A DNA stretch of 64,000 bases from NCBI GenBank assembly GCA_016868855.1, contig VGFP01000001.1, positions 372,001-436,000 of the forward strand, given 5' to 3'. The notes under the pieces are model-generated. The model searched no databases, had not been told where the DNA came from, and worked only from the letters and a program-made list of their open reading frames with translations. A program made the translations under genes and the position numbers. Of this stretch, positions 2,725 through 13,466 are shown one piece after another; the stretch's first letter is position 1, and every line of letters begins with the position of its first letter. Source of the stretch: Bacteroidota bacterium (GTDB lineage: Bacteria > Bacteroidota > Bacteroidia > Chitinophagales > Chitinophagaceae).

Positions 2725-3081
2725 ATGGCAAGACACAATGATACGGGAAAACTGGGTGAGCAATTTGCGCTGGAATGGGCAATCGACAATGATTACCTAA
2801 TCAGAGAGCGAAACTGGAGTTTCGGAAAATGGGAAATTGATTTGATTGCTTCAAAAGAGGACAGGCTTCATTTCTTTGAAGTAAAGACAAGAAGGACAAA
2901 TATTTATGGTTACCAGGAGGAATTGGTTGACAAGCATAAACTTTGGCACTTTATTTCAGCAGGTACAGCCTATATCAGGTACCAAAAAGAATTCAAGTGG
3001 ATTCAGTTTGATATTCTTTCCATCACGCTGGACGAACATGATAAACCCCATTTTTTTCTAATTGAAGATGTGTATCTCTAA
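2725..3081 (+). CDS. yraN: YraN/UPF0102 family endonuclease-like protein
   Basis: A 118-residue member of UPF0102, a small family with the PD-(D/E)XK nuclease fold; its cellular role is not settled. The sequence shows GEQFALEWA, then RNWSFGKWEIDLIASKEDRLHFFEVKTRR, here given as its two catalytic parts EIDLI and FEVK. A purine-rich AGAGGAG lies three bases before the ATG, which is unusual in this window but close for a Shine-Dalgarno site. The stop overlaps that of the convergent tlpA-like gene by four bases. Confidence 0.9.
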   Translation: MARHNDTGKLGEQFALEWAIDNDYLIRERNWSFGKWEIDLIASKEDRLHFFEVKTRRTNIYGYQEELVDKHKLWHFISAGTAYIRYQKEFKWIQFDILSITLDEHDKPHFFLIEDVYL

Positions 3082-4160
3082 TTTTTGGAGAAGATTGTTT
3101 CAAGCTTCAACCGCAACTGCTCTCCCCTTAAGTTTTTTCCTATAATTTTCCCTTCCGGATCAATCAGATAATTTTGAGGGATGCTTTGAATCTTATACTG
3201 AACAGCGACTTCATTGCTCCAAAATTTCAAATCGCTGAGTTGGGTCCAGGTCAACTTATCATCTTGAATAGCCTTCAACCAAGGTTCTCTTGCCCTGTCG
3301 AGTGAGACACCCAACACGGTAAATTTTTTTTCCTTGTATTGATTGAATGCATTGACAACATTTGGATTTTCCTGTCTGCATGGGCCACACCAACTGGCCC
3401 AAAAATCAAGCAGTACATATTTTCCTTTGAAAGATGAGAGTTTGATATCTTTTCCACTTACATCCTTTTGAGTGAAATCTGGTGCCATTGTTCCCACAGC
3501 ACCAAACTTGGCATCTGATGCCATCTTCTGAGCCATCTTGCCATAATAATTGTCTTTGGCCTGCTCTGAGATGATGGACAATCTGTTTTCCATTACCATT
3601 GGATCATCACTCAACTGCATCATCACCAAAACTACAAATGGTGCAACAGGAGAATTGCTGTAGTTTTTCACAAAATCATCTCCGAATCTATTGGCATCTA
3701 CAATCAATTGTTCATAATTTTTTCTGATGGACTCATCTTTATTACCTTGATTGATTTGCTGTGCAAGTCCACTTAACTTCTGAAGGATGGGTGAATAGTT
3801 GGTATTGAATTGAAAAAAATCGTATGTGGTTTGAGAACCGGTGATTTTGGATGTTTGCAACGTTTTGAAATCACCTTCAATTGAAATTTCAGAAGGATCC
3901 ATGAATAAGAAAAGATTTTGCTGAGAACCCTTTGCAGATAGTTTGTACAATCCAGGTTCCTTCAGCTCTCCCTTCAATTCGAACATTTCACCACTGGAAA
4001 CACCTTTTGCCAGAGGTTCAGGATCGAGTTCTTCATTTTGAAGTACAATCTCCGTTTTATCGGGCATGCCTTTAAAATTTCCTTTGATGGTAAACTTGCC
4101 ACTCTGCGCCAGCAGGAATCCAGGCAATGCAAACAATGTAAGAATGAATAATTTTTTCAT
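3078..4160 (-). CDS. TlpA-like thiol:disulfide oxidoreductase with DUF4369-like N-terminus
   Basis: A 360-residue exported thioredoxin-fold protein. A signal peptide (MKKLFILTLFALPGFLLAQ) is followed by a DUF4369-like domain to about residue 110, a helical linker, and a C-terminal TlpA/AhpC-TSA domain from about residue 220. The active site is WASWCGPC. Such proteins act as periplasmic disulfide reductases or resacetins of redox state in Bacteroidota; the substrate here is unknown. The ATG overlaps the hisIE stop (ATGA), making it the last gene of the trp-his operon. That position may be a coincidence of packing. It is a second TlpA-type protein in the window, the other being at 36800-38020. 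Confidence 0.87.
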   Translation of the reverse strand: MKKLFILTLFALPGFLLAQSGKFTIKGNFKGMPDKTEIVLQNEELDPEPLAKGVSSGEMFELKGELKEPGLYKLSAKGSQQNLFLFMDPSEISIEGDFKTLQTSKITGSQTTYDFFQFNTNYSPILQKLSGLAQQINQGNKDESIRKNYEQLIVDANRFGDDFVKNYSNSPVAPFVVLVMMQLSDDPMVMENRLSIISEQAKDNYYGKMAQKMASDAKFGAVGTMAPDFTQKDVSGKDIKLSSFKGKYVLLDFWASWCGPCRQENPNVVNAFNQYKEKKFTVLGVSLDRAREPWLKAIQDDKLTWTQLSDLKFWSNEVAVQYKIQSIPQNYLIDPEGKIIGKNLRGEQLRLKLETIFSKN

Positions 4161-4759
4161 TTTTGATGGCGTTGTTGCAAAATTTGCTTTACATCCTGCA
4201 AAGCATATCCTTTTGCGTTTAACAATATTAAATAATGAAACAGCAAATCTGCAGCTTCATTGAGAAACAATTCACTGTTTTGGTCTTTTGACTCTATAAC
4301 GAGTTCGACTGACTCCTCTCCAACTTTCTGTGCTATTTTATTTATACCTTTTTCAAAGAGAGAGTGAACATAAGAGTTTGCATCATTTGAATTTTTGCGT
4401 TGCTCTATGATTGTTTCAAGATGATTCAAAAAATCACCTGATTCATTGATTTCACCCCAACAGGTATCTGATCCAGTATGACATGTTGGTCCCTCTGGTT
4501 TAACCTTGAACAACAATGTATCATGGTCACAATCGACTGCACATGATTTTAGATGCAGGAAATTTCCGCTCTCCTCACCTTTTACCCAAATCCGTTGCTT
4601 GGATCTGCTGTAAAAAGTTATTTTTTGGGTTGATATGGTAAGATCAAATGACTCCTTATTCATAAATCCCATCATCAATACCTTACTAGTATCAAGGTCT
4701 TGAATGATGGATGGTACGAGTCCATCGTTGTATTTTGAGAAATCAACTTTGATCTGCAT
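4157..4759 (-). CDS. hisIE: Bifunctional phosphoribosyl-AMP cyclohydrolase / phosphoribosyl-ATP pyrophosphatase
   Basis: Performs steps 2 and 3 of histidine biosynthesis. The HisI part spans about residues 1-105 and carries SRSKQRIWVKGEESGN, CAVDCDHD and GPTCHTGSDTCW, the Cys/Asp metal-binding pattern of cyclohydrolases. The HisE part spans about 110-200 with KVGEESVELVIE and NEAADLLFHYLILL. The 200-residue length matches fused HisIE. It lies 24 nt after hisF, the widest gap in the operon, and overlaps the downstream tlpA-like start by four bases. Confidence 0.96.
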   Translation of the reverse strand: MQIKVDFSKYNDGLVPSIIQDLDTSKVLMMGFMNKESFDLTISTQKITFYSRSKQRIWVKGEESGNFLHLKSCAVDCDHDTLLFKVKPEGPTCHTGSDTCWGEINESGDFLNHLETIIEQRKNSNDANSYVHSLFEKGINKIAQKVGEESVELVIESKDQNSELFLNEAADLLFHYLILLNAKGYALQDVKQILQQRHQK

Positions 4760-4783: not shown

Positions 4784-5536
4784 TCATCTGACAGGAATTT
4801 GCCTTTTTCTTAAGAATGCTTTAAGATCTGGTATGGCAATCTCTTTGAAATGAAATATACTTGCTGCAAGTGCTGCATCGGCCCGCTGACTTAAGATTTC
4901 AAAGAAATGTTCAGGTGTTCCACCCCCTCCTGAGGCAATGACAGGTACACTTAGAGCAGAGGAAACTTTATTGGTGATATCAACCGCAAAACCATTTTTT
5001 GATCCATCATGATCCATCGAGGTCAGCAATATCTCCCCCGCTCCTCGTTTTACACCTTCGATTGCCCAATCTGTACATTTTGCTGATGTGGAGACAGTCC
5101 CACCGTTTAAATACACATACCAGTCGCCATCATCATGTTGTTTTGCATCGATGGCTAGCACAATGCATTGACTGCCGAATGCTGCTGCCAGTTCGTTGAT
5201 CAAATCAGGACGCTTGAATGCTGCTGTATTGACCGATATTTTATCAGCCCCGGCATCAAGCAAAACCCTGACATCCTCTACCGATGCAATTCCACCTCCC
5301 ACAGTGAATGGTATATTGATGGCATGTGCAATGCGATTCACCAAGGATGCAAGTGTCTTTCGTTTTTCATTGGTTGCAGTGATATCCAAAAAAACCAATT
5401 CATCTGCGCCTTGCTCAGCATACAATCCAGCCAATTCAACCGGATCGCCTGCATCACGTAAATTGACAAAATTGGTACCCTTTACTGTTCTGCCATCTTT
5501 GATATCAAGACAAGGAATGATTCGCTTTGTGAGCAT
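4784..5536 (-). CDS. hisF: Imidazole glycerol phosphate synthase, cyclase subunit
   Basis: HisF uses ammonia delivered by HisH to convert PRFAR to imidazole glycerol phosphate and AICAR. The 250-residue (beta/alpha)8 barrel has the catalytic Asp11 in [10 protein letters not shown] and Asp130 in VLAIDAK, the same numbering as in well-studied HisF. The phosphate-binding VGGGIAS and [12 protein letters not shown] motifs are also visible. It starts one base after hisA ends and cooperates with hisH, two genes upstream. Confidence 0.97.
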
Positions 5537-5537
5537 A

Positions 5538-6266
5538 TTATTTCGATTCGTTTATATATTGCTCTATTTGAGAGATGCTGATTTTATTTTCATAAATGGC
5601 CTTCCCGATGATCACACCATCACAATGAACCTCGCTTAATTTATATATGTCATCCATGCAGGAAACCCCTCCACTTGCAATGATATTTGTTTTGGGAAAG
5701 TTTTTTTTCAAGCTGTCGTAGAGTTCAATGGACGGTCCCTCCAGTTTTCCATCTTTTGCTATGTCTGTGCAAAATACATTTTCCACTCCTTTGCTTACAT
5801 ATTGCTCCAAAAAAGGAAACAGTTTCATTTCAGATGCTTCCATCCAGCCACTTACCATGATATTACCGTCTTTTACATCCGCACCCAACATGAACCGATG
5901 GGCTCCAAAACGCTCTAACCATTCTGCGAAAATTTGTGGCTCTTTGACAGCTATGCTTCCAACTGTTACATATCGAACTCCCAGAGAAAGAATCCGTTCC
6001 ACATCTTCAATGGTTTTCACTCCGCCGCCAAAATCAATATGCAAATTGGTTTGTGCAGAAATTTGCTCGATTGATTGCCAATTCACTACCCGCCCAGCTT
6101 TTGCACCATCCAAGTCCACCACATGCAAACGTTGAATGCCATGCGCTTCATATGTTTTGGCCATATCGAGTGGAGAAATGCCGTACACAGATTTCTGTTG
6201 ATAATCGCCTTCAGTGAGGCGCACACATTTTCCATCAATGATATCTATGGCTGGTATGATCTGCAT
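5538..6266 (-). CDS. hisA: ProFAR isomerase
   Basis: 1-(5-phosphoribosyl)-5-[(5-phosphoribosylamino)methylideneamino]imidazole-4-carboxamide isomerase, step 4 of histidine synthesis. It has 242 residues. Catalytic Asp8 is in [15 protein letters not shown] and Asp130 in LGADVKDG; the phosphate-binding segments DFGGGVKT and ASGGVS are present. A separate trpF lies in the same operon, so this need not be a dual-function PriA enzyme. It is one base from both hisH and hisF, consistent with one transcript. Confidence 0.97.
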
Positions 6267-6267
6267 A

Positions 6268-6858
6268 CTAGAGATCTAAAAAATTTTGAATGATTTTACT
6301 TCCAACTTCTGCACTCTTTTCCGGATGGAACTGCACGCCATAGAAATTATCACGACTCAGGGCTGCGCTGTAATTCATTCCATATGCAGCTTTTGCTATG
6401 GTATGCATACCCAAATGGGCATAATAACCATGCACAAAATAACCATAGCTGTTTTCTGCAACACCCGCGAAAATGGGAGATGTTAAATCAAATATATTGT
6501 TCCATCCGATTTGTGGCGATTTCAATTGAATGACATCGGGATTGAATTTTTTCACCTCCTCTGAAAATATTCCGAGGCAGTCTGTATTGTTTTCCTCTGA
6601 ATATTGACACATCAATTGCATCCCCAAACAAATGCCAAGAAATGGTTGTTTTACGCCCCTGATTACCTGATCAAGACTTCTCTCTTTTAAATACCTCATC
6701 GCACTGCTGGCCTCCCCCACGCCGGGGAAAATGACCCTATCAGCTGAAAGGATTTCTTCAGCAGTATCGGTCAGTAAAGATGAAACACCTAAACGTTCGA
6801 GCGCAATTTCGACTGACTTCACATTGCCTGCATTGTATTTGATGATAGCTATTTTCAT
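6268..6858 (-). CDS. hisH: Imidazole glycerol phosphate synthase, glutaminase subunit
   Basis: Class I glutamine amidotransferase that supplies ammonia to HisF. The 196-residue protein has the nucleophile Cys77 in LGICLGMQLM and the His178/Glu180 pair in VQFHPEKS. The N-terminus IAIIKYNAGNVKSV is typical of HisH. Its ATG overlaps the trpA stop by four bases, so the join between the trp and his halves of the operon is translationally coupled. I see no internal promoter at the junction. Confidence 0.96.
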   Translation of the reverse strand: MKIAIIKYNAGNVKSVEIALERLGVSSLLTDTAEEILSADRVIFPGVGEASSAMRYLKERSLDQVIRGVKQPFLGICLGMQLMCQYSEENNTDCLGIFSEEVKKFNPDVIQLKSPQIGWNNIFDLTSPIFAGVAENSYGYFVHGYYAHLGMHTIAKAAYGMNYSAALSRDNFYGVQFHPEKSAEVGSKIIQNFLDL

Positions 6859-7625
6859 TGCAAAATGGAACGAATGAATGTTGTTGTGGCTGATATATAA
6901 TCTTTTTCTGTTTGAAGCCGGTTGATGAAAGCGGTACCAATGATGCCGCCATTTGCATGTCCACTGAGCAATTCAAATGAGACTTTATCCTTTATTCCGA
7001 ATCCAACCAAAATAGGATTCCTCAATTGATACCCATTCAGTCGGTCGACATATGAAACAACTGCATCCATATTTTTTTCTTTACCAGTAGTTGATGACGA
7101 AGAAACAGCATATAGAAAACCAGTACTCAATTGATCCAATTTTTTCACCCTCTCCGCTGATGTTTCAGGTGTTACCAAGAAAATAAAATCGAGTCCGTAT
7201 TTTTTCATGATATCACCATATCCATGTTCAAATTCAAACGGAGGCAAATCGGGTAAAATCAATCCGTCAATTCCAACTGCTGAAGCCATCTCACAAAATT
7301 TCTCGAAACCGAATTGCAACACAGGATTCATATAGCCCATCAAAATGACAGGAATATGAATATCTTTTCGAAACGTTCTCAATTGATCAAACAATGTGGC
7401 AATGGACATCCCATTCTTCAATGCAACCGCACTGCTTTCCTGTATAACCGGTCCATCTGCCAAAGGGTCGCTGTATGGCATTCCCAATTCGATGATGTCA
7501 ACTCCATCACTTTGCAATGTTTTCATGATCTCAACTGTGCTATTCAGTTCTGGAAATCCAGCAGTGAAATATACGTTGAGTACTCCCTTTTTCTTTTTAT
7601 CAAACAGATCCTGAAGTCTTCCCAT
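6855..7625 (-). CDS. trpA: Tryptophan synthase alpha subunit
   Basis: Cleaves indole-3-glycerol phosphate to indole and glyceraldehyde-3-phosphate and channels indole to TrpB. The 256 residues include Glu46 in IIELGMPYSDP and Asp57 in LADGPVIQ, matching the catalytic Glu and Asp of the family. FGIKDK and GIIGTAF contribute to phosphate binding. It is the last trp gene; its stop overlaps the hisH start. Eleven bases separate it from trpB. Confidence 0.97.
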   Translation of the reverse strand: MGRLQDLFDKKKKGVLNVYFTAGFPELNSTVEIMKTLQSDGVDIIELGMPYSDPLADGPVIQESSAVALKNGMSIATLFDQLRTFRKDIHIPVILMGYMNPVLQFGFEKFCEMASAVGIDGLILPDLPPFEFEHGYGDIMKKYGLDFIFLVTPETSAERVKKLDQLSTGFLYAVSSSSTTGKEKNMDAVVSYVDRLNGYQLRNPILVGFGIKDKVSFELLSGHANGGIIGTAFINRLQTEKDYISATTTFIRSILQ

Positions 7626-7636
7626 GTTTTTTTTCT

Positions 7637-8830
7637 TTATTGCTCATTCATCGCATTCATATAGGTCGAAAGATCCTTATCGCCTCTTCCGCTCAAACAA
7701 ATTACTGACACCTCATCTTTTTTAAGATTCATATTGCTCAACACTGCAAATGCATGGGCTGTTTCCAACGCTGGTATGATGCCTTCAAGTTTTGAAACTT
7801 CAAATGCAGCTTGCATGGCTTCTTCATCTGTTGCAGATAAAAATGTTCCTCTGCCGCTGGAGAAAAGATGGGCGTGCATGGGACCAATTCCCGGATAATC
7901 GAGTCCGGCTGATATGCTGTGTGGCTCAACAACCTGTCCATCGGGGGTTTGCATGACAATGCTTTTGCTTCCATGTAAAATACCAGGCACACCCAATTGT
8001 GTTGTAGCAGCACTGAGTCCACTGTTGACACCATGCCCCGCAGCTTCAACAGCTACTATCTCAACGGAAGGCTCGTCTAAAAAGTGATAAAAAGCACCAG
8101 CTGCATTGCTGCCGCCACCTACACAGGCGATGACACGATTGGGAAGTGTACTGCTGGTTTTTTCCTGTAATTGGATACGGATTTCATTGCTGATGACTGA
8201 CTGAAATCTTGCAACCATGTCAGGGTATGGATGCGGTCCTACCACTGAACCGATGATATAATGTGTATCGGTTGGGTGATTGATCCAGTCGCGTATGGCT
8301 TCATTGGTAGCATCTTTGAGTGTTTTGCTTCCACTGGTGGCAGGAATTACTTTAGCACCAAGCATTTTCATGCGTGCAACGTTTGGTGCCTGCCGTTCAA
8401 TATCCTTCTCCCCCATATAAACAATGCATTCCAATCCCTTTAGTGCACAAACCGTTGCAGTAGCCACTCCATGTTGTCCGGCTCCTGTTTCAGCAATTAT
8501 CCGTTTTTTACCCAAACGTTCTGCCAACAAAATTTGTCCGATGGTATTGTTGATCTTATGGGCTCCTGTATGACAGAGATCTTCTCTTTTCAGATATATA
8601 ACCGATCCATACTTCTCACTCAATCGTTCGGCCAAAAAAAGCGGAGTAGGTCTTCCAACATAATCTTTCAGCAAGGCGTGAAAATCTTTCTGAAAAGTTG
8701 GATCATTGTAAATCAACTGATAAGATTGCTGCAGTTGTTCAACATTCTGGAACAACATTTCAGGAATAAATGCTCCTCCAAAATCACCGTAGTATCCTTG
8801 CAAATCGGGAGATGTAAAAGTTTTATTCAT
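7637..8830 (-). CDS. trpB: Tryptophan synthase beta subunit
   Basis: PLP enzyme that condenses indole with serine to make tryptophan. The PLP lysine is in HTGAHKINNT, about residue 92 from this start, and the phosphate-cup motif GGGSNAAG follows near residue 235. GRPTPLFLAERLSEKYG and the C-terminal CLSGRGDKDL are family hallmarks. Two in-frame ATGs occur at 8836 and 8830; I use the second (MNKTF), but the first is equally possible and only extends the overlap with trpF. Length about 397 residues. Confidence 0.97.
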   Translation of the reverse strand: MNKTFTSPDLQGYYGDFGGAFIPEMLFQNVEQLQQSYQLIYNDPTFQKDFHALLKDYVGRPTPLFLAERLSEKYGSVIYLKREDLCHTGAHKINNTIGQILLAERLGKKRIIAETGAGQHGVATATVCALKGLECIVYMGEKDIERQAPNVARMKMLGAKVIPATSGSKTLKDATNEAIRDWINHPTDTHYIIGSVVGPHPYPDMVARFQSVISNEIRIQLQEKTSSTLPNRVIACVGGGSNAAGAFYHFLDEPSVEIVAVEAAGHGVNSGLSAATTQLGVPGILHGSKSIVMQTPDGQVVEPHSISAGLDYPGIGPMHAHLFSSGRGTFLSATDEEAMQAAFEVSKLEGIIPALETAHAFAVLSNMNLKKDEVSVICLSGRGDKDLSTYMNAMNEQ

Positions 8831-9467
8831 GTGCATAGCTGTTTAGCGATTTTTTGAATTTTATCAGTTTTTCAATATCTTTCATTCCAGGTGCTGTCTC
8901 AAATTTGCTGTTGATATCTACTGCCACCATTTTTTCTTCATGTGTGCTGAATTCGAACACTTGCTCAGCATCCTCCACTCCAATACCACCGCTTAAAAAA
9001 TATTGATGTGACAAAGGTACCGACAATTGCTGCCAATCGAACTTTACTCCCGATCCTCCATGCAAGTCCGATTTGGTATCAAACAAAAACGAATCCACAT
9101 GCCCATAGCCCGCTGTCATATCAACCAATGGATCGCCAGATCCTACACGAAATGCTTTAATAACCCTGCAATGGGTTGAAGCTTGTTTACAATAATCAGG
9201 TGATTCATCGCCATGTAGTTGAACATAATCCAATTTCCAGGAATTGATAGTGTTAAGCAAATGATCCATCGATGCATTCACAAAAACACCAACAGTACAA
9301 ATTCTCATTCTTGATATCTTCTCAATTTCCATAGCAGTAAACTTTTCAGCAGCATACCTGGGCGATGCAGGATAGAAGATAAACCCTGCAAAATCAATCT
9401 GCATCTCATCCAACATCTGCACTTGATTAAAATCAGTCATGCCGCAAACTTTGATTTTTAAACTCAT
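8823..9467 (-). CDS. trpF: Phosphoribosylanthranilate isomerase
   Basis: Converts N-(5-phosphoribosyl)anthranilate to CdRP. The 214-residue TIM barrel has the catalytic Cys in the N-terminal IKVCGMTD and a general acid Asp in the FLFDTKS segment. GGSGVKFDW and LSGGIGVEDA bind phosphate. Its 3' end overlaps the trpB start and its start overlaps the trpC stop by four bases, so it is translationally coupled on both sides. Confidence 0.95.
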   Translation of the reverse strand: MSLKIKVCGMTDFNQVQMLDEMQIDFAGFIFYPASPRYAAEKFTAMEIEKISRMRICTVGVFVNASMDHLLNTINSWKLDYVQLHGDESPDYCKQASTHCRVIKAFRVGSGDPLVDMTAGYGHVDSFLFDTKSDLHGGSGVKFDWQQLSVPLSHQYFLSGGIGVEDAEQVFEFSTHEEKMVAVDINSKFETAPGMKDIEKLIKFKKSLNSYAHE

Positions 9468-10246
9468 CCCAATTGATTTATAAAATGTTGGAGCGATGCC
9501 CCTGGATCAGATTGCTTCATAAAATATTCACCAATCAAAAATCCCTTGTATCCATGCGCTCTGAATAATTTAATCTGGGAAGGCTGATCAATACCACTCT
9601 CTGCTACTTTTATTTTACTGGATGGAAGTTGTTCAGCCATTTTCAAACTCCGATCGATGTTGACTTCAAATGTTTTCAGGCTTCGGTTATTGATACCCAC
9701 CAACTGTACTTCATCACATACATGGTTCAACTCCTCTTCATCATGCAATTCCAGCAATACTTCCATTCCAAGTTCATTGGCGAGTGTTGCCAGTTGTCGA
9801 ACTCTTGACGGTGACAAACATGCAGCAATGAGGAGGATGAAATCGGCACCAATGGATTTTGCTTCATGCACCTGATATTCATCAATGATAAAGTCCTTTC
9901 GCAAAATAGGTATAGTTATTTGGGACCTGACAGATGTAATTTCATGATTGGATCCTCCAAAAAAAGATGCATCGGTGAGGATTGACAATGCAGAAGCACC
10001 TGCCTGCTGATAGGCATTGACAACAAACGACACTTCTAATTGATCATTGATCACACCTTTGGAGGGTGACTTCCGTTTGTGCTCTGCAATAATACCAGAA
10101 GTGTTTGGTTGATTCAGCGCATGACTTATTGAATAGCAACTCCGTTGATATGATGGCGATTTCATCAACATATTTTCCGGAACAAGCTGCTTGGCTTCTC
10201 TCAGCTCCATCGCCTTTTTCAATACAATTGTATCCAGTATATTCAT
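9464..10246 (-). CDS. trpC: Indole-3-glycerol phosphate synthase
   Basis: Closes the indole ring, CdRP to indole-3-glycerol phosphate. The 260-residue barrel shows the IAEHKRKSPSKG motif with catalytic lysines, LRKDFIIDEYQV, LLELHDEEEL and VGINNRSLKTFEV, and then VAESGI. All are diagnostic for TrpC. It begins two bases after trpD ends and is not fused to TrpF, unlike the enterobacterial protein. Confidence 0.97.
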   Translation of the reverse strand: MNILDTIVLKKAMELREAKQLVPENMLMKSPSYQRSCYSISHALNQPNTSGIIAEHKRKSPSKGVINDQLEVSFVVNAYQQAGASALSILTDASFFGGSNHEITSVRSQITIPILRKDFIIDEYQVHEAKSIGADFILLIAACLSPSRVRQLATLANELGMEVLLELHDEEELNHVCDEVQLVGINNRSLKTFEVNIDRSLKMAEQLPSSKIKVAESGIDQPSQIKLFRAHGYKGFLIGEYFMKQSDPGASLQHFINQLG

Positions 10247-10248
10247 TG

Positions 10249-11241
10249 CTATTGAAGTTGAATGAGATTTTTCAATGCCTGATTTGCTTTTCCACCCAAT
10301 AAACTTTCCTTGGCTGCGTCAAATGCCGATGGATAATCTGCAAATTTTCCGGTAAGTAAGAGTCCGAAGGCTGCATTGCAACATACCACTGCATTTTGTG
10401 CATCAGTTCCCTTTCCCTGTAGGATGTTCAAGAATTTTTCAACTGCAGCATCCACTGTATCACCACCGTAAATTTCATCCGGACGAACATTCGTTTTTCC
10501 CAATGCGAGCGGTTGAAACACATTTTCCCCTTCTTTGGTGATGACTTTAGCATCTGCCGTCAAAGAAATTTCATCATATCCATCGAGTGAGTGTACAATA
10601 GCAAATGATCCTTGTTCACTTTGAAGCAAGTAGTTGTAGAGCCTGGCTATTTCAAGGTTATATACTCCAATCAACTGAAAAGCAGGCTTAGAGGGATTTA
10701 CAACGGGTCCTAATAAATTGAAAAAAGTCCTCACTTTGAGATTCTTGCGTATAGGTCCCACAGTTTTCAATGCCGGATGAAAAAATGGCGCATGCAAGAA
10801 ACACATGTTAGCAGCATCCAGTTCTCTTCTCAACGCATCCTGATCATTTTTAAATTTATAACCAATTCGCTCCATCAGATTCGATGCTCCGCTGATACTG
10901 CTTGCCCCATAGTTGCCATGTTTGGCAACGGGAAAACCTGCACCAGCAACGATAAAACATGCGAGGGTTGAAATATTGAAAGTATTCTTTCCATCACCTC
11001 CGGTGCCAACTACATCCATTACTTGTTTACCTTGAAAATCAACCGGGACAGAAAGTTCCAACAATGCATCTCTGAATCCCATGAGTTCATCCAGTGTGAT
11101 GCTCCTCATAAGATATACTGTCATGAAAGCGCTCAATTCGTGTTCATTGTACTCGCCTTTTCCAATAGATACCAGAATTTGTCTGGCGTCTTCTCGTGAA
11201 AGTGTTCTGTGGTCGAATAAATAGTTCAATACTTTTTTCAT
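10249..11241 (-). CDS. trpD: Anthranilate phosphoribosyltransferase
   Basis: Transfers phosphoribose from PRPP to anthranilate. The 330-residue protein has the PRPP-binding GTGGDGKNTFNIST at residues 79-92 and the anthranilate-site segment VAKHGNYGASS. The N-terminal helical domain is followed by the alpha/beta domain, as in the family. It stands alone rather than fused with TrpG, and begins three bases after trpG ends. Confidence 0.97.
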   Translation of the reverse strand: MKKVLNYLFDHRTLSREDARQILVSIGKGEYNEHELSAFMTVYLMRSITLDELMGFRDALLELSVPVDFQGKQVMDVVGTGGDGKNTFNISTLACFIVAGAGFPVAKHGNYGASSISGASNLMERIGYKFKNDQDALRRELDAANMCFLHAPFFHPALKTVGPIRKNLKVRTFFNLLGPVVNPSKPAFQLIGVYNLEIARLYNYLLQSEQGSFAIVHSLDGYDEISLTADAKVITKEGENVFQPLALGKTNVRPDEIYGGDTVDAAVEKFLNILQGKGTDAQNAVVCCNAAFGLLLTGKFADYPSAFDAAKESLLGGKANQALKNLIQLQ

Positions 11242-11244
11242 GCA

Positions 11245-11838
11245 TTATTTTTTTGGACACAACCAGTTTTCAATCATTTTTTTTCCTTGTGGGGTCAATA
11301 CACTCTCTGGATGAAACTGAACACCCTGCACATCATATTTCTTGTGCCGAAGTGACATGATCATACTATTTTCATCTGTTGAAGTAATTTCCAACTCATC
11401 GGGGAACGATTCACTACTAACTACCCAACTATGGTAACGGCCTACCGTTAATCGATGATCAAATTCAGTAAACCAATCGTTTCCGAAAGTAGACTTCTGA
11501 ATATCTGTTCGGAGTTGTATTTCAGTTGAAATACCATGATATACATTTGGTAGATTGATCAATTTAGCACCAAAAACCTCACCGATGGCTTGTTCGCCGA
11601 GGCATACACCAAAAATGGAGTGTGTAGGACTACAGGTTTTGATCAAGTCGAGCAAAACACCTGCCTCTTGAGGGATACCCGGTCCGGGTGACAATAAAAT
11701 TTTATCATAACGTGCAGCGTCATGAACAGATATTTCATCATTCCTAAAAACATTTACTTGATCACCGATGATTTCTTTAGCCAGGTGAACAAGGTTGTAT
11801 GTGAATGAATCATAATTATCGAGAACCAGCAATTTCAT
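11245..11838 (-). CDS. trpG: Anthranilate synthase component II (glutaminase)
   Basis: Supplies ammonia to TrpE for anthranilate formation. The N-terminus LLVLDNYDSFTYNL, the oxyanion loop SPGPGIP, nucleophile Cys79 in GVCLGEQA and the C-terminal VQFHPESVLT mark a class I amidotransferase of the TrpG/PabA type. The ATG at 11838 is preferred over a GTG three codons upstream. PabA activity is also possible because many bacteria share the subunit, but the position next to trpE argues for TrpG. Confidence 0.95.
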   Translation of the reverse strand: MKLLVLDNYDSFTYNLVHLAKEIIGDQVNVFRNDEISVHDAARYDKILLSPGPGIPQEAGVLLDLIKTCSPTHSIFGVCLGEQAIGEVFGAKLINLPNVYHGISTEIQLRTDIQKSTFGNDWFTEFDHRLTVGRYHSWVVSSESFPDELEITSTDENSMIMSLRHKKYDVQGVQFHPESVLTPQGKKMIENWLCPKK

Positions 11839-11856
11839 TAAACTCACTTTATGATG

Positions 11857-13293
11857 TTATGATTGATGAATCGTTGATGCCAGTTGAATGGCTTTTTTCA
11901 ATGCCCCCAATTTATTAATCACCTCCTGCAATTCTTTTTCTGGCACACTTGAGGCAACTACTCCTGCTCCAGCCTGATAATAAAGGGTATTGTTTTTACT
12001 TAAAAAGCTTCTGATCAGTATAGCGTGATTGAAAGAGCCGTTGAATCCCACCATACCAATGGCACCACCATAGAAAGAGCGTTTTGTAGGCTCATATGTA
12101 TCTATCAACTCCATTGCCTTGTATTTCGGTGCACCACTGAGTGTTCCTGCAGGAAATGTATTGGACATCATAGAAAATGGATTGGCATCGCGCTTAGCAG
12201 TTCCAGTGACCTCACTCACCAAGTGTATAACGTGCGAGTAGAATTTAACCTGACGGTATTGAGATACTTGCACATTTTCACAGACCCTGCTGAGATCATT
12301 TCTCGCCAAATCAACCAGCATGACATGTTCTGCATTTTCTTTTGGGTCCTGCAGCAATCTTTCTGCCTCTTTCCTGTCCATCGCATCATCACCTGTTCGT
12401 TTGAATGTGCCTGCTATAGGATGAACAGTTGCCTTTCCGTTACCAACGATCAATTGGCTTTCTGGTGAAGATCCCAGGAGGCGGTACTCACCATAGTCAA
12501 AATAAAAAAGATATGGAGATGGATTGATCATGCGCAATGCCCTGTATACATTGAATTCATCGCCCTTAAAAGCTTGTTCAAATCGTCTGCTCAAAACAAT
12601 TTGAAAGACATCTCCACGGTGACAATGTGCTATACCTTTCTGAACCATTTCTATATAAGATTGATCCGTCATATTGGACGATTCATCACCAACCGCATTA
12701 AAGGGGAACTGTGGCAAGTCCCTACCATGAATGATATCTTCAATGACCTGCTTTCCACCTTCAATACCCTCTACATGATTTTCAAGTAACATCATTTCAT
12801 CCTTGTGATGATCGATGGCGATGACAAATTGATACAATCTGTAACGCATCAATGGAATGAAATCGGAAGTAGAAGTTGACTTCAACTGGTATGATTTTTC
12901 TTTGAATAGCACCGTTTCAAAAAACCTAACAGCATCAAACGTTGTGTATCCATAGAGCCCCTGTGCAAATACCTCCTCCCTGCTTTGCTGAAATACTTCG
13001 TACTGACACATATACTTCCAAATCAGATCTGGAACCTGATCGTTGGACAGGTGGATGGTCTCTGGATCAGCAAGAGGATATTTGAATTCTACTGTTTGCG
13101 CAGAGCTGATTTCAATTCCTCCAATTGCGTTGATGGCTATGAAAGAAAAACTGTTCTCAGAAGTATGGTGATCGGTACTTTCCAATAGAATGGTATCCCT
13201 GAATTTATCCCGCAATCTGAGGTAAATGCCCACCGGAGTATAGAGATCGGCAGGTAATTTTTTGAAACTGGTACTTAATTTTATTTTTTTCAT
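11857..13293 (-). CDS. trpE: Anthranilate synthase component I
   Basis: Makes anthranilate from chorismate and ammonia, the first committed step to tryptophan. The 478-residue protein has the N-terminal feedback element LLES at residues 36-39 followed ten residues later by Ser, the usual tryptophan-binding signature. The catalytic half shows LSRRFEQ, PIAGTFKRTG, LVDLARNDLSRVCE and GTLSGAPKYKAMELI. It is the first structural gene of the trp-his operon. Its ATG lies 22 nt after the U-tract of an intrinsic terminator, so transcription should depend on attenuation as described separately. Confidence 0.97.
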   Translation of the reverse strand: MKKIKLSTSFKKLPADLYTPVGIYLRLRDKFRDTILLESTDHHTSENSFSFIAINAIGGIEISSAQTVEFKYPLADPETIHLSNDQVPDLIWKYMCQYEVFQQSREEVFAQGLYGYTTFDAVRFFETVLFKEKSYQLKSTSTSDFIPLMRYRLYQFVIAIDHHKDEMMLLENHVEGIEGGKQVIEDIIHGRDLPQFPFNAVGDESSNMTDQSYIEMVQKGIAHCHRGDVFQIVLSRRFEQAFKGDEFNVYRALRMINPSPYLFYFDYGEYRLLGSSPESQLIVGNGKATVHPIAGTFKRTGDDAMDRKEAERLLQDPKENAEHVMLVDLARNDLSRVCENVQVSQYRQVKFYSHVIHLVSEVTGTAKRDANPFSMMSNTFPAGTLSGAPKYKAMELIDTYEPTKRSFYGGAIGMVGFNGSFNHAILIRSFLSKNNTLYYQAGAGVVASSVPEKELQEVINKLGALKKAIQLASTIHQS

Positions 13294-13314: not shown

Positions 13315-13347
13315 AAAAAAGCAAAGCCCCGAAAATTCGGGGCTTTG
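13315..13347 (-). terminator. Leader terminator (candidate attenuator) of the trp-his operon
   Basis: On the minus strand CAAAGCCCCGAA (13347-13336) pairs perfectly with TTCGGGGCTTTG (13333-13322). The stem is followed by C and six Ts (13320-13315), a textbook intrinsic terminator. It sits between the leader ORF and trpE, not at the end of smpB, which has its own terminator at 13467-13495. A competing fold is visible: AAAAGGGGU at 13381-13373 can pair with CCCC (13342-13339), with a flanking G-U, plus UUUU (13335-13332), leaving a three-base bulge. Premature termination as the function is inference. Confidence 0.8.
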
Positions 13348-13370
13348 AATATGTTACAAAACAAGTTTGG

Positions 13371-13424
13371 CTACCCCTTTTGAGAGATAGTATGCCATCC
13401 GTTGTTATTGTTGATAGATTTCAT
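13371..13424 (-). CDS. Candidate Trp-His leader peptide of the trp-his operon
   Basis: A 17-codon ORF, MKSINNNNGWHTISQKG, ends 24 nt before the terminator stem. Codon 10 is TGG (Trp) and codon 11 is CAT (His), one for each pathway encoded downstream. The Trp/His codons lie in TGGC-A-TAC (13397-13390), which can pair with GTAGCCA (13374-13368) spanning the leader stop codon. That would be a 1:2 stem. A ribosome stalled at Trp or His would free the GGGG segment for antitermination. Only one codon of each type is present, weaker than classical leaders. No expression evidence is available from sequence. Confidence 0.6.
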   Translation of the reverse strand: MKSINNNNGWHTISQKG

Positions 13425-13466
13425 TCAGACAAATTTGCAGAAAAAAAATCATATATCCAAGCAATC

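Follow-up and report, generated by a model that had tools for sequence, protein, structure and literature searches.

The trpEGDCFBA-hisHAFIE operon described here is preceded, we estimate with a probability of about 0.8, by a two-input ribosome-mediated transcription attenuator whose leader peptide would report a shortage of either tryptophan or histidine. It lies in a stretch of 64,000 nucleotides (all of it called the window below) from an assembly of 1.43 Mb that is 87% complete and whose nearest named relatives, among the matches listed, are Chitinophagaceae (Bacteroidota); the leader ORF sits between smpB (13928-13494) and trpE (13293-11857) on the minus strand (Table 1). The comparisons below support ribosome-mediated attenuation as the main reading of the locus. 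Sequence and comparison show a conserved leader with its codons, alternative pairings at a kept distance, and a His codon that depends on linkage to his genes; we infer from there on a promoter, a start site, translation, stalling and a response to Trp or His shortage, which would work together as follows: Transcription would begin just before the leader ATG, and when charged tRNA-Trp or tRNA-His is short the ribosome would stall at TGG or CAT, masking region 1 and freeing region 2, so that the GGGGU:GCCCC antiterminator could form and polymerase would continue into trpE. When Trp and His are both plentiful the ribosome would reach the stop codon and cover GGGGU, and the GCCCC arm would join the terminator. 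In untranslated RNA region 1 could hold region 2 (this is predicted for the window and not for most relatives), and the terminator would form as well.

Table 1. Positions of the operon genes and of the leader elements in the window
Feature	Position	Strand	Remarks
Candidate -33 element, TTG	13458..13460	(-)	20 nt upstream of the -7 element; proposed
Candidate -7 element, CAAATTTG	13430..13437	(-)	TAnnTTTG-like; 5 nt before leader ATG
Leader peptide ORF (predicted), MKSINNNNGWHTISQKG	13371..13424	(-)	17 codons, ATG...GGA TGG CAT...AAG GGG TAG
Regulatory Trp codon TGG (candidate)	13395..13397	(-)	WWW in most relatives
Regulatory His codon CAT (candidate)	13392..13394	(-)	directly 3' of TGG
Region 1, UGGC-AUAC-UAUCUCU	13383..13397	(-)	predicted partner of region 2 when ribosome-free (fold)
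Region 2, AGGGGUAGCCA	13368..13378	(-)	folds, swap test
Region 2 core, GGGGU	13377-13373	(-)	can pair with either region 1 or region 3; extends into stop codon
Region 3 core, GCCCC	13339..13343	(-)	5' arm of terminator; pairs with GGGGU in antiterminator
Intrinsic terminator	13315..13347	(-)	11-bp stem 13347-13322 plus T-rich tail
trpE	11857..13293	(-)	TIGR00564, E 1e-120, below curated cut-off; first structural gene
trpG	11245..11847	(-)	
trpD	10249..11241	(-)	
trpC	9464..10246	(-)	
trpF	8823..9467	(-)	best match E 6e-47, below curated cut-off
trpB	7637..8836	(-)	
trpA	6855..7625	(-)	
hisH	6268..6858	(-)	
hisA	5538..6266	(-)	
hisF	4784..5536	(-)	
hisIE	4157..4759	(-)	

The initial annotation, made from the window alone, described a 17-codon ORF with adjacent TGG and CAT codons and a perfect intrinsic terminator ahead of trpE, and both are confirmed by reading the minus strand from 13424 to 13371 and by the 11-bp terminator stem with its CTTTTTT tail. 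The stem ends 28 nt from trpE and the U tract 21 nt before its ATG. Terminator-like sites as such are no more frequent than expected between 3000 and 16000 (9 observed, 9.1 by chance), and the leader terminator tops these nine, having the most pairs (11) and the most GC pairs (7). The window leader has one Trp and one His codon, and its sensitivity may therefore be low; theory relating codon number to the sensitivity of attenuators is found in the accessible part of PMC1183508. The genes from trpE to hisIE run head to tail from 13293 to 4157. The operon had been called a fused trp-his operon, which holds insofar as the trp genes and hisHAFIE are joined, but hisG, hisD, hisC and hisB are grouped at another place of the same genome. 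A gene for a ResA-like thioredoxin (3078-4160) comes after hisIE in the window, and a similar resA-like gene follows trpA or hisIE in 88 of the 134 loci that reach trpA, many loci ending earlier.

Are the short ORF and its Trp and His codons kept in relatives? Counting paralogues, a TrpE-like match is present in 94 of 99 relatives; 50 upstream regions were read in this first set and 47 leaders were carried forward. The larger set has 161 loci, made up of the 80 best of 587, the window, and 80 that were hand-picked for long contigs and genus spread among the matches listed (277 of 394 genomes have a match), and it was reduced to 153 distinct TrpE before counting. An ORF with Trp codons was called at 152 of these 153 loci (none was found at L131; at L083, of unknown linkage, the scripted call took the wrong upstream ORF and the true leader, MKRIYTNNGWHFISDKG, was set by hand). 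Every leader contains Trp by construction, because the caller seeks Trp-containing ORFs, and the same caller finds an ORF in 5% of shuffled upstream regions and on 9 of 153 reverse strands, with WWW in neither control. In 137 of the 152 leaders the first Trp run is WWW; 7 have WW and 8 a lone W (among them L155 with WRWH). A His codon stands directly after the run in 139, WWWH being the usual form. The window belongs to a clade with the single-Trp version, of which there are 24 leaders and 11 distinct DNA versions of five codons; in these 11, TGG and the CA of the His codon are invariant, and the third His base is T in 7 and C in 4. The conservation that the initial annotation had named as a check is thus present for the ORF and its Trp codons, and for the His codon when his genes are linked.

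The link between the His codon and the his genes was measured as follows: Loci with hisH downstream of the trp genes were called his-linked, and those with at least 2.5 kb after trpA and no hisH unlinked. Of the his-linked leaders 100 of 101 have His after the Trp run, as do 14 of the 22 unlinked ones, or 14 of 24 when two further loci are added (L119 and L133, both WWWQ, where the 0.8-2.5 kb available shows trpA and then a resA-like gene); Fisher's test of 100/101 against 14/24 gives p 1e-7, ignoring kinship. Linkage is unknown at 30 of the 153 loci (26 with His, 3 without and 1 with no leader), and all of these except L119 and L133 were left out. The 24 unlinked loci include L120, although its hisH sits roughly 7 kb past trpA, and L161 (Kaistella), which is outside the family. 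In the 100 his-linked leaders the codon after the last Trp is CAT in 88, CAC in 10, CAA in 1 and GGG in 1, the last being a WWGH leader whose next codon is His.

Kinship was taken into account on a midpoint-rooted FastTree tree of a single gene (134 TrpE, with G041, G043, G047, G058 and five other-family genomes added). Letting the rate of His loss vary with linkage improves the model by 2dL = 20.8 (p 5e-6 by the chi-square approximation, with two optimiser starts), the modelled rates being 2.27 in unlinked and 0.033 in linked lineages. An independent-pairs test is not significant with its 4 and 5 supported pairs and gives no decision because the pairs are too few; among the few pairs that differ in linkage, the mean number in which His goes along with linkage is 1.2 and 2.2, and the mean number in which it goes against it is 0.0 and 0.2. 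There are exceptions on both sides: L159 (Arachidicoccus) and G058 are linked with WWWQ leaders, and G047 (same family) and G089 (another family) have WWWH without linked his genes. The unlinked family members G043 (WWWQ) and G041 (WWL) have no His. These comparisons support the view that presence of the His codon follows operon content, with exceptions.

Of the 24 unlinked genomes, 17 have hisG and hisH on one contig at most 5 kb apart (six of these 17 are without the His codon), one has them on separate contigs and one at a distance of about 20 kb; in the other 5 neither hisG nor hisH was found at the thresholds used. Four of these five lack the His codon (P, L, Q and N in its place) and one keeps it; the missing genes can reflect assembly incompleteness, although G391, which is among the five, has a completeness rating of 100%. 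Kaistella antarctica (L161), of a different order, has a TrpE 58% identical to that of the window, a WWHH leader and unlinked his genes, and horizontal transfer is possible.

The separate hisG gene of the window genome (L078, G000:C1) has its own five-His (HHHHH) leader, MSPILNMHHHHHFFPKG, with a hairpin and a T tract behind it. An upstream short ORF with at least three consecutive His codons was found at 27 of 30 hisG loci examined, which were taken from 57 genomes with hisG and include that of the window. With a poly-His leader before hisG and a Trp-His leader before trpE, hisGDCB would therefore respond only to His, and trp-hisHAFIE to both amino acids. Eight loci have another arrangement (L145, L149, L151, L154, L155, L156, L253 and L254), in which hisG precedes trpE by 4.6-4.8 kb and trpA is followed by hisH, A, F and IE; this resembles a trp operon inside a his operon, as judged from the genes searched (hisG and hisHAFIE).

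Can the RNA form the alternative structures that such a leader needs? The window leader RNA folds to -35.8 kcal/mol compared with -17.9 (sd 3.1) for its shuffles (z -5.7; 0 of 200 as low). When it is ribosome-free the computed fold has the terminator together with UGGC:GCCA and UAUCUCU:AGGGGUA as the 1:2 stem, and the UAC:GUA pairs that the initial annotation had drawn in that stem are not recovered. With Trp or His in the A site (and a ribosome footprint assumed to extend to 12 nt, counted from the first A-site base) GGGGU:GCCCC forms in the nascent RNA, and with the stop codon in the A site the terminator forms with no competing structure. The GGGGU:GCCCC core of the 2:3 antiterminator that had been proposed is therefore retained, but its AAAA:UUUU extension is absent from the fold when the loop is included. 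That extension is rare in relatives as well: AAAA precedes GGGG in 10, UUUU is in the terminator loop in 11, and both occur in 4 of 127 leaders. In full-length stalled window RNA the terminator is still the equilibrium fold, and the decision must therefore be kinetic, as in classical attenuators.

An intrinsic terminator between leader ORF and trpE was detected for 150 of the 152 leaders (in the other two, L215 and L221, the detector finds none, yet the stem is visible), and the same search on shuffles gives a hairpin in 9 of 75, all weaker than the weakest real one. The stem ends at most 60 nt from trpE in 105 of the 150, with a median of 38. In nascent folds of these 150 leaders the antiterminator is present in 150 with a Trp stall, 150 with a His stall and 30 with the ribosome at the stop codon; folds with shuffled middles give 87, 79 and 70, respectively. 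The claims that a stall at either codon favours the antiterminator and that a completed leader favours termination accordingly stand in computed folds. The distance from the codon after Trp to GGGG is 13-17 nt in 125 of 127 measured leaders. Only 39 of 150 leaders have four or more region 1:2 pairs in their nascent fold of minimum energy, and in 136 the nascent RNA pairs with the terminator arm even when no ribosome is present, so outside the window this part of the model is weak; the 1:2 stem is, as far as folding predicts, the weakest part of the attenuator model.

Pairing was also probed by swap and fold tests on the 150 leaders. The 2:3 duplexes of arms from the same leader come to -12.38 kcal/mol and those of swapped arms -10.84 (sd 0.14), and the 1:2 duplexes -9.11 and -8.59 (sd 0.11); in both cases 0 of 2000 permutations, which ignore kinship, were as low. 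A leader's own partner is better than the median swap in only 88 and 87 of the 150, respectively, probably because GGGG:CCCC is common to most leaders. A contiguous 2:3 duplex (5 bp or longer, with 3 or more GC pairs) is present in 138 of 150 leaders and in 24% of shuffles, and compensated variants among the leaders include GGGGUC:GACCCC, GAGGCUU:GAGCCUC, ACAGUG:CGCUGU and GUGUC:GACAC. Covarying stems had also been named as a sign of attenuation, and by the swap test and these variants region 2 and the terminator arm do co-vary. The unlinked WWWQ or WWWS leaders L110, L119, L133, L231 and L239 have another antiterminator core, of the type UGUGUC or UGUGCC, facing GACAC or GGCAC on the terminator side.

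The primary sigma factor of Bacteroidota recognizes TAnnTTTG at -7 and TTTG around -33, according to the accessible text of PMC7366714. We counted TTTG at 4-9 nt before the leader ATG in place of a free best-match search for TAnnTTTG, which is blurred by the upstream box. TTTG is exactly 7 nt before the ATG in 74 of 150 leaders (0.8% of shuffles) and 4-9 nt before it in 118 (4.7% of shuffles), and in the hisG leaders it is 4 nt before the start in 22 of 27. A sigma-70 promoter scan gave 34 sites where 34.0 are expected by chance, no excess. With these boxes transcription would start at the leader ATG or a few nt upstream of it, and their position 4-7 nt before the start codons of both leaders suggests that the trp and hisG leader mRNAs may be nearly leaderless. 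In Bacteroides only about 3.7% of 5' UTRs are shorter than 10 nt, as given in the portion of PMC7366714 available to us.

We searched Rfam for known families. At the gathering score there were 0 matches in the window, T-box models included, and 0 in the loci of 20 relatives (17 with a trp leader, 2 with a hisG leader and 1 with neither). A loose threshold gave 25 matches in the window, all far below the gathering score and none of them to Trp_leader or His_leader, which we take to be the family names for such leaders. The best by E-value (2.7e-5), a flavivirus 5'UTR model on the opposite strand and also far below its gathering score, was taken for an effect of the terminator hairpin and set aside.

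Would a leader that senses tryptophan alone explain these observations as well? The His codon would then be present through RNA pairing or by descent and histidine would go unsensed, an account that gains from the fact that UGGC belongs to region 1, from the retention of His in 14 of the 24 unlinked operons, and from the other families of the order, where 5 of 6 WWW leaders have no His next (G076 P, G090 N, G075 A, G077 N and G086 L). G072 offered only a doubtful YWWR candidate, and in the upstream region of G098 (another family) no leader candidate was found. We consider sensing of Trp alone unlikely, since the His codon tracks linkage (100/101 and 14/24, with p 5e-6 in the likelihood-ratio test), both His codons are used in linked leaders (CAT 88 and CAC 10), and a His codon in the A site leads to the antiterminator in all 150 folds. 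The hairpin might instead be an ordinary terminator of smpB, which is directly upstream in the window, with a chance ORF beside it and a separate promoter for trpE. We reject this as hardly credible: smpB was found upstream in only 7 of 161 loci, and leader and terminator are still there when other genes take its place. In addition, the ORF of the leader is conserved, and in the window no more than 28 nt lie between the stem and trpE. Control of the terminator by a T-box, a protein or a metabolite riboswitch is also very improbable, given that Rfam gave 0 matches at the gathering score in the window and the 20 relatives' loci and that the conserved parts are an ORF, fixed codons and a fixed spacing to region 2.

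With the two-input attenuator as our preferred reading, we lean, somewhat beyond even odds, towards a fuller picture in which it acts as an OR gate: the trp-his operon would open when either Trp or His runs short, and the first half of the his pathway would listen to His alone through its poly-His leader. The His input would be kept with linkage and tend to be lost without it, so that leader codons track operon content; both leaders may be nearly leaderless; and the window clade would have trimmed WWWH to one Trp and one or two His codons.

The E. coli trp attenuator (trpL) likewise has a short ORF with Trp codons, alternative stems and an intrinsic terminator before trpE; it differs from the present leader, which has a single Trp and a single His codon (most relatives have WWWH), an antiterminator core at the stop codon, a promoter box that in 118 of 150 leaders is 4-9 nt ahead of the ATG, and no Rfam match. 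The leaders of ilvGMEDA and thrABC carry codons of more than one amino acid, from connected pathways. They resemble the present leader in combining the codons of several amino acids, whereas here two separate pathways are joined by the operon. Both are listed as attenuated operons in the accessible part of PMC1183508. In the poly-His his attenuators of gamma-proteobacteria, and of some Firmicutes according to the part of PMC9413887 at hand, leader His codons sense histidine, as would the HHHHH leader of the window genome's own hisG; in the trp leader, by contrast, a single His follows Trp and would act on hisHAFIE within a trp operon. The trpL of Sinorhizobium meliloti is leaderless, its transcript starting at the leader ATG (from the accessible text of PMC7298713), and it shares Trp codon runs and alternative hairpins with actinobacterial trp attenuators (likewise from an accessible portion, PMC1262725) and with the leaders described here. 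As far as those portions go, these systems belong to other phyla and sense Trp only, and unlike in S. meliloti the start close to the ATG is here deduced from promoter boxes alone.

The mechanism is classical; the two-pathway input and its tie to operon content are the new part. Among the matches listed, open-licence PMC titles and the starts of abstracts describe no Trp-His leader and no trp or his attenuation in Chitinophagaceae, and those listed show little on attenuation in Bacteroidota. The leader offers a testable sensor that would join two biosynthetic pathways, and across the family it amounts to a natural experiment in how a regulatory leader gains or loses an input as operons fuse or split.
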